The notes under the pieces were generated by a model. The model was given only the letters and a program-made list of their open reading frames with translations, made no database searches and had not been told where the DNA came from. The position numbers were made by a program, and so were the translations under genes. A stretch of 64,000 nt of DNA from Alkalihalobacterium alkalinitrilicum (GTDB lineage Bacteria; Bacillota; Bacilli; Bacillales; Bacillaceae_F), in the NCBI RefSeq assembly GCF_002019605.1, contig NZ_KV917368.1, positions 2,095,843 to 2,159,842 on the forward strand, given 5' to 3'. The first letter of the stretch is position 1; every line of letters starts with the position of its first letter. Below are positions 16,440 to 45,966 of the stretch, in pieces.

Positions 16440-16620
16440 CATAAGTAATATGAATTCAAACTGTATTTTCACAGTTGATCGGTTTAATTCATCCCTCTGT
16501 CCCAGTCCTATGGATCAAGGCAGACTACATTAGATTGTCATAAGTGTTTGTTATAAAAACTTACACTCAAAAGTAGTGATATCCATTAGGTGCAGTTCAA
16601 ATGGATACTGCCCATATGAA
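16440..16620 (-). ncRNA. Structured panB leader, candidate pan RNA motif
   Basis: The 5' leader between the promoter-like sequence and the terminator holds several stems: TATCCAT/ATGGATA (16580-16607) closing a 14-nt loop and AACTGT/ACAGTT (16459-16476). A conserved RNA called the pan motif is known upstream of panB in Firmicutes, including B. subtilis. I cannot confirm its consensus here by eye, so identification rests on position plus the downstream terminator. Confidence 0.45.
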
Positions 16621-25150: not shown

Positions 25151-25366
25151 TTATCCCGCAACAACTCGCAGTAATACCCTCACTTCAAGACTTCGAGGTA
25201 TCAAAGAAGGATAAGTGGGGGATAAACTGCCAGTAACAACTAAAAGAACACAGACTAAATGCGCCACGTCCTGTGGCAACGTCTTTGTGACCCACATCGT
25301 GTGGGCCTCAACTAACCAGAAGTAAGGGAAGAGGACTACCCTCACTAATGGAGTTCCACTTTATTG
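25151..25366 (-). repeat. Dispersed structured repeat, copy 1 (full length, about 216 bp)
   Basis: Read on the minus strand from 25366, it begins CAATAAAGTGGAACTCCATT and ends GCGGGATAA. It contains three or four successive hairpins, including GGCCCACAC/GTGGGTC and GCCAC-AGGAC-GTGGC. It matches copy 2 at 45769-45966 over most of its length and copy 3 at 63849-63945 over its first part. It fills the ypjA-qcrC gap, which holds no gene apart from a spurious 64-codon frame created by the repeat. Confidence 0.85.
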
Positions 25367-28823: not shown

Positions 28824-30086
28824 TTAGAGATCTTCTTCTATATAATTGATTAGTTCTTTAATATTTAATCGTGATTCATCCAATGTGATTGCCTTTTTGA
28901 ACAATGTCAAACTTTCATTACGTTCACCGTTCTCCATCAAGAATTTACCATATTCCTCTAGAAAGTCAACATCTTCTGTAAAATCTTCTTTTACAGCTTC
29001 AAAACATTCTTTTGCTTTATCCATTTCATCATTTTCATAACGAGCGACCGCTTCATACCATGTTAAAGCTGGGTCTCCTTCACCGATATCTTTTAAGTGT
29101 TCAACCAAGTCAATTAGGTCTTCATAGCGCCCTTCATGTTTCAAAAATCCTGCCAATGTTCGGACAGCTTCAAAATGGCTAGGGTTAATCGCAATGACCT
29201 CTCTTAAATATTCTTCCCCTTTATCTCGATTATTCATTTTAAAGCTTAACTTTCCACCATGTACGTATAATTCTTCGTTAAATTGATCAACCGCAAGCCC
29301 CTCATTGATAACCTTGATCGCATCTTCGTAGCGGTGGAGAGCTTCAAAACATTTTGCTAAGTAAGGATACACACTGCTGAACTCTGAGTCAAGTTCCTTT
29401 AAAGTGGTAAACTGGTCAATTGCAAGTTCATATTTCTCAATTTGATACGCTGTATATCCATAATTAAAAATAGCATGAATATCTAATTGTTGATCTAGGC
29501 CCTCAGCATAAAATTTTAATGCTTCTTCATATTCACCTGTACCACTATAGGCTTCAGCTAAACGTAAAGCAATATTCATCTCTTCTAGCTTCACGTTCGC
29601 ATAATAAGCCTTTTTTAAATGAGGTAGACTCTTTTGAAAATCTCCTCTATCTAAGTAAAAATCACCAAGCCCAAAAGACACAATCGGTTCATCTGGAGCT
29701 TTCTCAATAGCCTTTAACAACTTCTGTTCAGCAACTTCATCTAGTCCTTGCATTTGATATAAATCAGCTAACAATAATAGCGATCTTACATAAACCGGAT
29801 CATCGTCATTAACCTCAAGAAGCATTTCGATCGCTTCGTCCTCTTGGCCTAAATCAATTAACAACTCTGCATAAAATGTATAGAGTTCACCTTCATCAGG
29901 ATATAGTAGTAATAAATCATTGATAATTTTTTTTACTTTTTCTAGATGCCCCAACGAATAATATGCTTCTGCTAATTCAAATTTAGTCTCATGGTTACTC
30001 GTATTCTCAAGTTCTGCTAATTGTGCGAGTCCTTGATCTACTTGACCACTTTCTATTTTTTTTACGGCTTCAATAATTTTTCCCAT
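28824..30086 (-). CDS. ypiA: TPR-repeat protein YpiA
   Basis: Start taken as the ATG at 30086 after CTGGAGG, giving 420 residues. The whole protein is an array of about ten tetratricopeptide helix pairs, such as AEAYYSLGHLEKVKKIINDLLLLYPDEG in pattern, ADLYQMQGLDEVAEQKLLKA and YGYTAYQIEKYELAIDQF. YpiA of B. subtilis has the same size and context and works together with YpiB; the TPR surface should bind protein partners. A perfect terminator separates ypiA from the upstream amidohydrolase-like gene. Confidence 0.88.
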   Translation of the reverse strand: MGKIIEAVKKIESGQVDQGLAQLAELENTSNHETKFELAEAYYSLGHLEKVKKIINDLLLLYPDEGELYTFYAELLIDLGQEDEAIEMLLEVNDDDPVYVRSLLLLADLYQMQGLDEVAEQKLLKAIEKAPDEPIVSFGLGDFYLDRGDFQKSLPHLKKAYYANVKLEEMNIALRLAEAYSGTGEYEEALKFYAEGLDQQLDIHAIFNYGYTAYQIEKYELAIDQFTTLKELDSEFSSVYPYLAKCFEALHRYEDAIKVINEGLAVDQFNEELYVHGGKLSFKMNNRDKGEEYLREVIAINPSHFEAVRTLAGFLKHEGRYEDLIDLVEHLKDIGEGDPALTWYEAVARYENDEMDKAKECFEAVKEDFTEDVDFLEEYGKFLMENGERNESLTLFKKAITLDESRLNIKELINYIEEDL

Positions 30087-30124
30087 AAAAATCCTCCAGC
30101 GAGTTTTGTTGTTTACTTTTAAAC

Positions 30125-30161
30125 TAAATAAAAATACCATCATAACCTTATTATGATGGTA
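30125..30161 (-). terminator. Terminator after the amidohydrolase-like gene
   Basis: Perfect 11-bp stem TACCATCATAA / TTATGATGGTA, 5-nt loop, then TTTTTATTT on the minus strand. Confidence 0.88.
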
Positions 30162-30209: not shown

Positions 30210-31124
30210 TTAATAATCCATAACTTCTTTATAAGCTTCGCTAATCGGTAAAAAATGTCTCGGTACATTAATTCTGACTTCCCTACCAAAACCTGGTTTA
30301 TAATAAATAGATTCACCCGCTTTAATGACCTTTCCACGTAGGACGACAACGGCAGGTTCAATTGGGACCATCGAATCTTTGTTTACTTCATCATTTTGGT
30401 ACAAAATGTAATCGACATCACTTCCTACGATGAGCTCACTTTTTCTTGGATAAAGTCCTGCTTTTTTTGACAAAACTTTCGGAAATGGTTCATGCTCGTC
30501 AGGAAACGATAAATGGGTGGGAATTCTATATTGATTAGATAGTTCTCCCCATACTTGAACGAGTTTTTCCTCTTTTTTTCGTGTAACAGGGGTTTCTGTC
30601 CAATTTGGGATAATTAATAGTTGATAATTAATCATGGCTTCTTTCATTCGTTCCCACGACACTTTGTATAAGTCTTCTATAGAGTTAATGTTTAGACGTA
30701 TTATCGGAACTTTTTCACGCCTGCACTTTCGAATAAGTAATGGCGTTAAACCCGTAAGTGTAGTTTGAATACCAATCATAAAATCAATAGGGCTATTGAT
30801 AAGCTGATGACGCGCAAGTCGTAACTTCTTATTTAACTCATCTACGTTTTCCACCAAAGGATACGTTACGATCGTCGTACACCCTTTTTCAATTAAACGC
30901 TTAAATCTCACTTTATAAGCTTCTTTATGATTGAAGTTAATCAAGTTAAAATCATTCATAATGTGACCAGCAGCCAATGTAAACCCGTTCATGTTCAATC
31001 GTGTAAACTTCAATTTATCCATTTTCTCATTTACATAAGAAACAGAATCATTTTCAATATAGTAGGATTTCTTTTGAATTTCACGATCTACTTTTCTTTT
31101 TACATCTGCAAGAATGTATTTCAT
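30210..31124 (-). CDS. Amidohydrolase-like protein lacking the metal-binding His motif
   Basis: A 304-residue protein that I do not recognise by name. The C-terminal third reads like the end of an amidohydrolase: GSDVDYILYQNDE, PAVVVLRGKVIKAGESIYY, FGREV. The centre has barrel-type strands (DFMIGIQTTLTGLTPLLI, VPIIRLNINS, LLIIPNWTETP, IPTHLSFPDEHE). Where active enzymes have GxxDxHxH the sequence is AAGHIMNDFNLINF, so at least one of the paired metal histidines is missing. It is therefore either inactive or uses another arrangement. It is absent from the B. subtilis aroE-ypiA interval, and it is preceded by a strong promoter and a terminator-like structure (31249-31385). Confidence 0.7.
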   Translation of the reverse strand: MKYILADVKRKVDREIQKKSYYIENDSVSYVNEKMDKLKFTRLNMNGFTLAAGHIMNDFNLINFNHKEAYKVRFKRLIEKGCTTIVTYPLVENVDELNKKLRLARHQLINSPIDFMIGIQTTLTGLTPLLIRKCRREKVPIIRLNINSIEDLYKVSWERMKEAMINYQLLIIPNWTETPVTRKKEEKLVQVWGELSNQYRIPTHLSFPDEHEPFPKVLSKKAGLYPRKSELIVGSDVDYILYQNDEVNKDSMVPIEPAVVVLRGKVIKAGESIYYKPGFGREVRINVPRHFLPISEAYKEVMDY

Positions 31125-31248: not shown

Positions 31249-31291
31249 AAAAAAAAAGACCTGTTCGAAAACGTAAACGCTTTCAAACAGG
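31249..31291 (-). terminator. Strong terminator of the candidate small RNA
   Basis: 11-bp stem with one G-U pair, inner CGT/ACG pairs, and nine consecutive Ts on the minus strand. The loop region 31272-31286 also matches the CcpA cre consensus at 14 of 15 positions. Confidence 0.88.
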
Positions 31292-31351
31292 GTTAGCAAG
31301 ATGCTAAAAAGTCTATTAGTATGGATAGGAGTGGAGAGAAACCATACGCTA
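31249..31351 (-). ncRNA. Candidate small RNA with CU-rich loop, about 100 nt
   Basis: From a predicted start near 31351 (minus strand) the RNA would fold as: hairpin 1, ATTA-GC-GTATGG with CCATACTAAT, closing a 17-nt loop UUUCUCUCCACUCCUAU (31325-31341); hairpin 2, TTAGCA/TGCTAA; and a terminator hairpin CCTGTTTGAAA / TTTCGAACAGG with nine Us (31249-31291). A sigma-A promoter sits directly upstream. The loop is complementary to Shine-Dalgarno sequences. It may be a free small RNA or an attenuated leader of the 30210-31124 gene. Confidence 0.6.
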
Positions 31352-31357
31352 ATTTTT

Positions 31358-31385
31358 ATTATATAGAAAAATATAACAAAGTCAA
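31358..31385 (-). promoter_or_regulatory. Near-consensus sigma-A promoter of the candidate small RNA
   Basis: TTGACT (31380-31385) and TATAAT (31358-31363) 16 nt apart on the minus strand, located between the aroE terminator and the hairpin series. Confidence 0.75.
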
Positions 31386-31443: not shown

Positions 31444-32733
31444 TTATTGTAAGCTGTTAATATGTTCAAAAAAATTAGGATATGATACGGCAATTGCCTC
31501 ACTTTTTTCAACAGTAACACTACTGTTAGCAATACACCCTGCAATCGCCATTGCCATACCGATTCGATGATCTCCATGACTATTAACGGTATTTCCGTTG
31601 AGTTGGATAGGACCTTCTATAACCATTCCATCATCTGTTGCTTCTATCTTTGCGCCTAATTTTTTTAATTCACTAACAACCGTATCAATTCGATTCGTTT
31701 CTTTTACTTTTAGTTCTTCAGCATCACGAATAACTGTTTTCCCTTGCGCTTGTGTTGCTAATACTGCAATGACTGGAATTTCATCGATTAATCTCGGAAT
31801 AATATCTCCACCAATTTCACACCCTTTAAGCTCAGATGTGGAAATTACAATGTCAGCAACAGGTTCACCGTTCGTTTCCTTTTCATTCATCAATTCAAGA
31901 CTAGCACCCATTTTTCGAAGGACATCAATAATTCCTGTCCGCGTCGGATTAATTCCAACATTTTTAAGTACAATATGACTATTTGGAACAATGGCACCTG
32001 CCACTAAAAAAAACGCCGCAGAAGAAATATCTCCAGGTACAATAACATGTTGTCCTGTTAACTCTTGTCCACCTTTTACCGATACTGTTAGCCCATCTCT
32101 TTCCACCTCAACACCGAAAGCTTGAAGCATCCGTTCTGTATGATCACGGGATAATTCTGGCTCAGTCACACTCGTTACACCTTCACTCTGTAAACCAGCG
32201 AGTAAAATGGAAGATTTGACTTGAGCACTTGCCACTTTAGAAGAATATGCAATCCCCCTTGTCGTGCCACCACGGATCGATAAAGGAGTCAAATTGCCAT
32301 TATTACGACCATCAATCAATGCACCCATTTCTCGTAATGGATTTGTTACTCTTGACATCGGCCGTTTACCAATAGAAGCATCACCAATCACGACAGAATG
32401 AAAAGGACGTGTAGCTAAAATCCCTAGCATCAATCTCGTCGTTGTTCCTGAATTACCTACATCGAGAATTTCAGTAGGTTCCGTTAACCCGCTCCAACCA
32501 TTACCGTCAACTTTAACCTTGTCACCTTGGGCATCAATATGAACACCTAACTTCTGAAAGCAGGCAATGGTGCTTAAACAATCTTCACCTGGAAGGAAAC
32601 CTTCTATTGTTGTCGTTCCATTTGCGATCGCTCCAAACATAACAGCACGGTGAGAAATGGATTTATCTCCTGGTACTTTAATGGTTCCATTTAGGCCAGC
32701 AGTTACTTTTTCTACTTTATTCACTTCTCTCAC
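31444..32733 (-). CDS. aroE: 3-phosphoshikimate 1-carboxyvinyltransferase (EPSP synthase)
   Basis: Sixth step of the shikimate pathway (the enzyme called AroA in E. coli). The 429-residue sequence has the substrate loop [16 protein letters not shown], the [15 protein letters not shown] motif, the [10 protein letters not shown] segment and KETNRIDTV. The GTG start at 32733 overlaps the tyrA stop (GTGA); a second GTG at 32724, better spaced from GGAG, is also possible. Last gene of the supraoperon, ending at a strong terminator. Confidence 0.96.
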
Positions 32734-45771: not shown

Positions 45772-45966
45772 TAAAGTGAAACTTCATTCAGTAGGGGTTT
45801 TCTTCAGCACCCACTGAATGTTAGTTGAGACCCTCACGAGGTGGGTCATACAGACGTTGTCACAGGACGTGACGTTATGAGTTTGTGTTCATTTAAGCAT
45901 TTACTTAGTCTTTATTATTGCCTCAAGCTTTGAAATGGGAGGCTTAGCACCAGTTAAACGGGATAA
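45769..45966 (+). repeat. Dispersed structured repeat, copy 2 (full length, about 198 bp)
   Basis: Begins CAATAAAGTGAAACTTCATT and ends ACGGGATAA. Hairpins include CATTCAGT...ACTGAATG, GACCCTCACGAGGTGGGTC and GTCACAGGACGTGAC. Same family and order of parts as copy 1 (25151-25366, minus). It fills the hepT-ndk gap, which contains no gene. Confidence 0.85.

Follow-up and report, generated by a model that had tools for sequence, protein, structure and literature searches.

A candidate small RNA family of Bacilli with a conserved CU-rich seed predicted to pair with ribosome-binding sites of amino acid synthesis genes

INTRODUCTION

RosA of Bacillus subtilis and RsaI of Staphylococcus aureus are described as stand-alone, CcpA-regulated small RNAs (sRNAs) that tie the carbon source to posttranscriptional control (PMC8216469). 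According to a 2021 review, SR1 is expressed under gluconeogenic conditions, is repressed by CcpN and CcpA, and inhibits translation initiation, and the C-rich regions of RoxS/RsaE and FsrA pair with target mRNAs and inhibit their translation (PMC8464778). The table of B. subtilis trans-acting sRNAs in that review contains SR1, FsrA, RnaC, RoxS, and RosA, none of which is entered there with the targets considered below (PMC8464778).

Here, we report the computational analysis of a locus within a 64,000-nt stretch of Alkalihalobacterium alkalinitrilicum DNA, the whole of which is referred to as the window. Its minus strand contains, at 31385-31249, a complete predicted sRNA gene that consists of a sigma-A-type promoter, a hairpin with a CU-rich loop, a second hairpin, and a terminator. 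The gene very probably represents a real, new sRNA family of Bacilli. By computation, we observed the anatomy of the gene, its conservation, an enrichment of cre-like boxes, and a complementarity to ribosome-binding sites (RBSs) that co-occurs with the RNA.

RESULTS

Anatomy of the predicted sRNA gene

The features of the locus are compiled in Table 1. The promoter matches the consensus at 11 of 12 positions and ranked first among the 14 promoter-like sites found in the 4 kb around the locus. As 13.9 such sites were expected, their frequency is at chance level, so that the promoter alone is no proof of a gene and conservation has to carry the case. Terminator-like sites in the same 4 kb numbered 6, with 2.0 expected; the terminator stem of the sRNA gene comprises 14 pairs and is followed by nine U at 31257-31249. 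The segment 31351-31250 folds into three hairpins with an energy of -29.5 kcal/mol (z = -5.9 with respect to dinucleotide shuffles), and the loop UUUCUCUCCACUCCUAU is unpaired in the predicted fold of the window RNA. An earlier note on this DNA, made from the sequence alone, had described a strong terminator, ending in nine U, downstream of a TTGACT/16 nt/TATAAT promoter, as well as three hairpins of which the first exposes a 17-nt loop; both descriptions were confirmed on the minus strand. In a collection of homologous copies that included a few galT-type sites, the seed was mostly unpaired in the predicted folds (median, 0.90), and shuffled seeds gave 0.89, which indicates that its predicted openness is nothing special. 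Predicted transcript lengths in the family range from 53 to 111 nt, with a median of 84 nt (179 distinct transcripts).

TABLE 1 Predicted features of the sRNA gene and its neighbors in the window
Feature	Position	Strand	Basis or remark
-35 hexamer TTGACT	31380..31385	-	Promoter-site search
-10 hexamer TATAAT, spacer of 16 nt	31358..31363	-	Promoter-site search
Predicted sRNA transcript, ~100 nt	31249..31351	-	Start estimated at 6 to 7 nt past the -10 hexamer
Hairpin 1, GUAUGG/CCAUAC enclosing a 17-nt loop	31319..31347	-	Fold; three outer pairs not kept in all lineages
Conserved 23-mer TGGTTTCTCTCCACTCCTATCCA	31322..31344	-	Sequence comparison
Predicted CU-rich seed UUUCUCUCCACUCCUAU, exposed, complement of AUAGGAGUGGAGAGAAA	31325..31341	-	Fold and target scoring
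Hairpin 2, UUAGCA-UCU-UGCUAA	31293..31307	-	Fold
Intrinsic terminator stem, then U tract to 31249	31260..31291	-	Sequence, terminator search, and fold
cre-like box TGAAAGCGTTTACG, one mismatch to TGWAANCGNTNWCA	31272..31285	-	Within the terminator stem
aroE in Bacillus naming (EPSP synthase, TIGR01356 aroA)	31444..32733	-	Conserved neighbor on the 5' side
304-aa protein, no family match	30210..31124	-	Frequent, dispensable neighbor
TPR-like protein, which we take to be ypiA from its position and appearance	28824..30143	-	Conserved neighbor

Conservation and distribution

The element was present in all four genomes of the genus and all seven of the family. A DNA match was found in 119 of the 397 genomes of the order, short or chance-level matches included, and a manual count gave 76 genomes with a match covering the loop region; these 76, listed by hand from the blastn matches, are the RNA-bearing genomes of the order. 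The exact 23-mer occurred in at least 118 stretches of GTDB contigs. The genera represented among the matches listed, in which 80 of the stretches are named, are only a sample and include Paenibacillus, Cohnella, Brevibacillus, Aneurinibacillus, Thermoactinomyces, Melghirimyces, Caldalkalibacillus, Marinococcus, Shouchella, Halalkalibacter, Fictibacillus, Pseudalkalibacillus, and others. A sequence-only model detected the element at an E value of ≤0.01 in 131 of 299 genomes of the class and 61 of 119 genera, of which the weakest rows may be due to chance; 19 of 20 weaker model matches that were chosen contained the 23-mer with at most three edits, and it was not found in L486. After a promoter and T-run filter, the collection, which was partly chosen by the core sequence, comprised 179 distinct predicted transcripts belonging to numerous families of Bacilli; the 20-nt core GGTTTCTCTCCACTCCTATC is unaltered in 170 of them. 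Because the Paenibacillaceae copies were collected by exact sequence, this apparent invariance is inflated, and the sequence-model search is less biased. Copies with a changed seed are L488 and L489.

What is conserved is the loop together with the flanking TGG/CCA, and not the stem. Among 56 sequences, three pairs of hairpin 1 are invariant, and the three outer pairs fail in 19 to 22. The exposed loop proposed in the earlier note is thus conserved, whereas the hairpin stem that was to present it is not. A search for covariation in hairpin 1 of these sequences gave a score of 0.051, which is below that of shuffles (0.064). The outermost pair changed from G-C to A-U in seven sequences, a number reached by 14 of 500 shuffles, and covariation support for hairpin 1 is weak at best.

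No Rfam 15 family reached its gathering score at the window locus or in 12 homologous loci. A known Rfam family was rejected, as the eight matches obtained were all below gathering scores and none was a full match to the RNA. There were no exact matches of the core in viral contigs. The core part CTCTCCACTCCTA was not found in the main texts of the open-access literature searched, and a search by topic, covering mostly titles and the beginnings of abstracts, retrieved no description of the RNA. An RNA-seq study of P. riograndensis is described as reporting 77 intergenic start sites and 27 small RNAs, and the RNA may already have been detected there, unnamed (PMC5670726).

Additional copies were noticed in some genomes. 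Family f73 (L471-L474) has two RNA copies at loci other than the usual one; from the neighbors as assigned by eye, these lie near a GIY-YIG-like gene and between an rpoN-like and a clpP-like gene. A second copy with a slightly altered 23-mer, L457 (G423), is present in Paenibacillus sinopodophylli, the genome that contains L163. Other RNAs of the window are two Bacillaceae-1 RNAs (RF01690), at 25239-25305 on the plus strand and 45831-45897 on the minus strand, and a pan motif RNA (RF01749) at 16493-16614 on the minus strand.

Genomic context and orientation

A total of 206 loci with the RNA were inspected (some genomes being represented twice), 187 of which contain aroE, tyrA, or hisC. In each of the 187, at least one of these genes has the RNA at its 3' side. 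In the window, it is located between aroE and the gene at 30210-31124 and points in the same direction, and the RNA is likewise co-directional with its neighbors in 151 of the 187 loci. This arrangement would suit an attenuated leader or cis-regulatory 5' untranslated region (UTR) of 30210-31124, the former being the alternative raised in the earlier note, or a fragment derived from the aroE operon's 3' UTR. In addition, when the RNA is folded jointly with the sequence that leads to 30210-31124, the seed pairs with the region just before the gene start and is no longer open; the terminator hairpin nevertheless stays intact in this longer fold. In the other 36 loci, the RNA gene is inverted in place relative to its neighbors, which excludes an origin as a leader or 3' UTR there.

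The distribution of the 304-aa gene bears on the same question. It was detected in 58 of the 206 loci, between aroE/tyrA and ypiA, but not in 41 loci in which the RNA is accompanied by ypiA; 30 of these leave no room for the gene, as the start of ypiA is at most 400 nt away from the core. In 16 loci of a collection that included a few galT-type sites, it is encoded on the strand opposite the RNA. Some of the loci scored as lacking it may carry a diverged copy, as L042 seems to. A cis-acting attenuator leader with a fixed orientation 5' of one gene was therefore rejected as a general explanation, given the inversions and the dispensability of the gene, and we assign next to no probability to an origin as a leader or UTR fragment. 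The RNA rather appears as an autonomous gene, having in its sequence its own promoter and intrinsic terminator and being inverted in 36 of 187 loci. It seems to have been flipped more than once between the same neighbors, in several lineages, while keeping its parts.

The inverted loci include L010, L013-L016, L018, L020, L023-L025, L028, L032, L033, L037, L159, L171, L175-L177, L184, and L190. The 304-aa protein has no Pfam or NCBIfam match and is an uncharacterized family; its earlier designation as amidohydrolase-like finds no support in these databases. In L198 and L220, the sRNA is followed directly by recombinase- or phage-like genes (assigned by eye), as though integration made use of this site.

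Coding potential of the core

The core can also be read as a micro-ORF, ATG GTT TCT CTC CAC TCC TAT CCA TAC TAA (MVSLHSYPY), that would encode a leader peptide or small protein, and an ATG is present at this position in 170 of the 179 distinct predicted transcripts. However, the 170 cores are identical including third positions, whereas a coding sequence would show silent changes. The ATG is replaced in the nine remaining transcripts (by CTG in 4, GTG in 3, and CAG in 2), a one-base deletion breaks the frame in L054-L056, and the predicted RNA start precedes the ATG by a median of 5 nt, so that there is no space for a Shine-Dalgarno site. A translated micro-ORF is consequently very improbable, and no conserved coding sequence was found in the RNA core, as is expected for an sRNA.

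cre-like boxes

Using what we take to be the cre consensus, TGWAANCGNTNWCA, we found a cre-like box with at most one mismatch on either side of the element in 147 of 191 distinct copies, at up to 62 nt upstream in 79 and up to 90 nt downstream in 84. In a control, 60 permuted palindromes averaged 2.2 of 192 copies, the largest value being 76; the 192 copies include a few galT-type sites, which are left out of the count of 147 of 191. In a collection including six galT-type loci, 58 of the 73 upstream boxes that had no more than one mismatch preceded the 23-mer by 32 to 33 nt. These fall between the -35 and -10 hexamers, a placement as expected for repression. In the window copy, the only cre-like box is the downstream one in the terminator stem, with one mismatch, and the promoter is without cre. 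Taken over the family, the boxes suggest that the sRNA promoter would be repressed by CcpA.

Candidate targets

The reverse complement of the element resembles an RBS with a start codon, AGGAGTGGAGAGAAACCATG. The exact pattern GGAGTGGAGAGA-N0-8-ATG was present in 81 of the 397 genomes of the order, namely, in 36 of the 76 with the RNA versus 45 of the 321 without it, corresponding to an odds ratio of 5.5 when kinship is ignored. At the translated subset of pattern sites in RNA-bearing genomes, the amino acid genes hom, serA, and aroA(G) recurred; for hom, serA, and aroA, a Pfam or NCBIfam match of one protein each bore out the assignment. Further genes at pattern sites, assigned by eye only, are serC, metI/C-like, purB, murQ, and galT, as well as cggR in two Paenibacillus genomes. 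Candidates within the family of the window organism, also assigned by eye (50 loci of 93 sites), comprise glgP, nfo, a HAD hydrolase, fumarase, sat, and fhs. In f20 (Pseudalkalibacillus type), the start region of a galT-like gene differs from the complement of the 23-mer at a single one of the 23 positions (L050, L052, L061, and L063). A single universal near-perfect target was rejected: a manual count that leaves out the RNA's own copies gave 64 matches with at most three mismatches in 56 genomes, versus 48 for a reversed-pattern control.

Target complementarity in genomes with and without the RNA

We scored the RBS windows of hom, serA, and aroA orthologues against the loop in genomes of the same order with and without the RNA. 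RNA-lacking genomes were those with no blastn match at an E value of ≤0.01, one per family; of these, only G017, G018, G034, G044, and G045 appeared as nonmatching in the listed part of the sequence-model search. For hom, 80 genomes were searched and 72 counted, after the removal of G147, G168, and G218 with the RNA (distant or no match) and of G009, G023, G034, G039, and G043 without it (distant, truncated, split, or no match). For serA, 67 of 80 genomes matched at 1e-60 and 65 were counted, and for aroA, 30 of the 80 genomes were searched and 29 counted; the motif was not found in G416 and G028 (serA) and G042 (aroA), which were dropped.

In the window genome, RBS-loop energies were -21.4 (hom), -21.8 (serA), and -22.3 (aroA) kcal/mol; none of 131 background ORF starts (L001-L049) reached -21.4, and the best of 62 window ORFs had -20.8. 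Median energies for genomes with and without the RNA were -17.2 (45 genomes) versus -11.6 (27 genomes) for hom, -16.2 (46) versus -10.3 (19) for serA, and -21.8 (19) versus -12.35 (10) for aroA, and for each gene, none of 400 permuted loops equaled the real one in either the mean or the difference. Some of these genomes had served to select the genes; a retest left out these discovery genomes, which for aroA removed 4 of the 19 RNA-bearing genomes, already known to pair. The medians were then -16.9 for hom (42 genomes; p = 6e-5), -15.9 for serA (43 genomes; p = 2e-5), and -21.8 for aroA (15 genomes; p = 0.0015); 0 of 400 permuted loops reached the mean for each gene, and 0, 1, and 0 of 400, respectively, reached the difference. 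As genomes are related, these per-genome p values overstate independence. When family means were compared with the single genomes of RNA-lacking families, p values of 0.001 for hom (9 versus 27), 0.004 for serA (9 versus 19), and 0.0125 for aroA (7 versus 10) were obtained.

Exact runs of at least 9 nt were present in 17 of 45 genomes with the RNA versus 0 of 27 without it for hom, 19 of 46 versus 0 of 19 for serA, and 13 of 19 versus 1 of 10 for aroA. A reversed-loop control gave a small difference for serA only (-11.5 versus -9.1). Stronger Shine-Dalgarno sites as the cause of the signal were not supported, as 16S anti-Shine-Dalgarno pairing at the targets was no stronger in genomes with the RNA. 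The real loop outperforms roughly nine tenths of the permutations in RNA-lacking genomes, too (35 of 400 for hom and 39 of 400 for serA are at least as good), an advantage expected of the part of the sequence that resembles an anti-Shine-Dalgarno. Within the window's order, seed-RBS complementarity thus exceeded chance for hom, serA, and aroA.

This signal is not uniform. Family f46 (Fictibacillus among others) showed no pairing at hom, serA, or aroA, the last being represented by one genome; f42 was without pairing at hom and serA, and f45 at serA. For some nonpairing genomes, the choice of the start may be wrong; wider windows of G047, G050, and G221 scored -17.6 to -20.1 at serA or hom. Outside the order, one of nine genomes reached -16 at hom and two of eight at serA. 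Judging from the lack of signal at hom, serA, and aroA, the targets differ in f46 and in most tested Paenibacillaceae. In G033 (L340, L415, and L552), the RNA was not detected, yet energies of -23.0 (aroA) and -20.0 (hom) were found; the RNA may have been lost recently, or a diverged or overlooked copy may be present.

DISCUSSION

Considering the conservation of the RNA, its autonomy, and the target complementarity that co-occurs with it, the central proposal of the earlier note, an sRNA whose CU-rich loop pairs with RBSs, is supported. We regard it as quite likely that the gene encodes a trans-acting, CcpA-repressed sRNA that would block the translation of amino acid synthesis genes. According to this model, an RNA of about 100 nt would be transcribed from its own promoter, which CcpA would repress as long as a preferred sugar is available. 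Near the 5' end of the RNA, the CU-rich seed would base pair with mRNAs of distant genes, covering their Shine-Dalgarno sequence and spacer and thereby blocking translation initiation. The shared targets predicted in the window's order, hom (homoserine dehydrogenase), serA (3-phosphoglycerate dehydrogenase), and aroA (DAHP synthase-chorismate mutase), are entry steps that draw on aspartate, 3-phosphoglycerate, and phosphoenolpyruvate (PEP). In the absence of sugar, the RNA would thus stop amino acid synthesis from draining gluconeogenic intermediates. Transcription, CcpA binding, the direction of regulation, and this physiology are inferred.

The seed might instead mainly bind a protein or another sRNA, the RNA acting as a sponge and the complementarity to hom, serA, and aroA being secondary. 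About 20 nt that are nearly invariant over distant genomes exceed what pairing with variable RBSs needs, and a further reason for this near-invariance is required. Most genomes outside the order are without hom and serA pairing, and CcpA-controlled RosA, and probably RsaI, are described as acting on other sRNAs (PMC8216469). However, within the order, complementarity to three amino acid genes goes together with the presence of the RNA and is sensitive to how the letters of the loop are arranged, and we consider a primary role as a sponge unlikely. Returning to an sRNA that acts on mRNAs, a change of targets with a fixed seed would imply a further constraint, for example, a dedicated binding protein or very many targets. 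In its widest form, the proposal is that of an ancient, class-wide, CcpA-controlled riboregulator with a near-invariant 20-nt anti-RBS seed, kept next to the aromatic amino acid operon, which would couple sugar and amino acid metabolism through targets that vary with the lineage; this broader reading may equally well prove right or wrong.

The candidate family spans many families of Bacilli, lies outside Rfam at the gathering score, and comes with a defined set of candidate targets. It predicts a link between CcpA and amino acid synthesis, and a seed that stays the same while its targets change raises an immediate question about the evolution of sRNA seeds.

The RNA would resemble RosA and RsaI in being a stand-alone sRNA under CcpA control, which in the present case is suggested by cre-like boxes. 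RosA is described as a sponge that acts via G-rich regions, and RsaI as having G-rich regions in addition to a C-rich region that binds mRNAs (PMC8216469), whereas the new RNA has one conserved CU-rich seed with a predicted action at RBSs; no conserved G-rich stretch was found in the 45-nt alignment of its conserved part. With SR1, it would share CcpA repression, expression under gluconeogenic conditions, and a block of translation initiation, all of which are predicted for the new RNA. In contrast, SR1 is a 205-nt RNA that codes for SR1P and acts on ahrC and kinA, whereas the new RNA has a predicted length of 53 to 111 nt and other candidate targets, and no conserved ORF of the SR1P type was found in its core. 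There was no match to the Rfam family of RoxS/RsaE at the gathering score at the locus or in the 12 homologous loci. RoxS/RsaE and FsrA are under the control of ResD/Rex and Fur, whereas the new RNA is accompanied by cre-like boxes; it is nevertheless similar to them in that their C-rich regions pair with mRNAs, as is predicted for its CU-rich seed.
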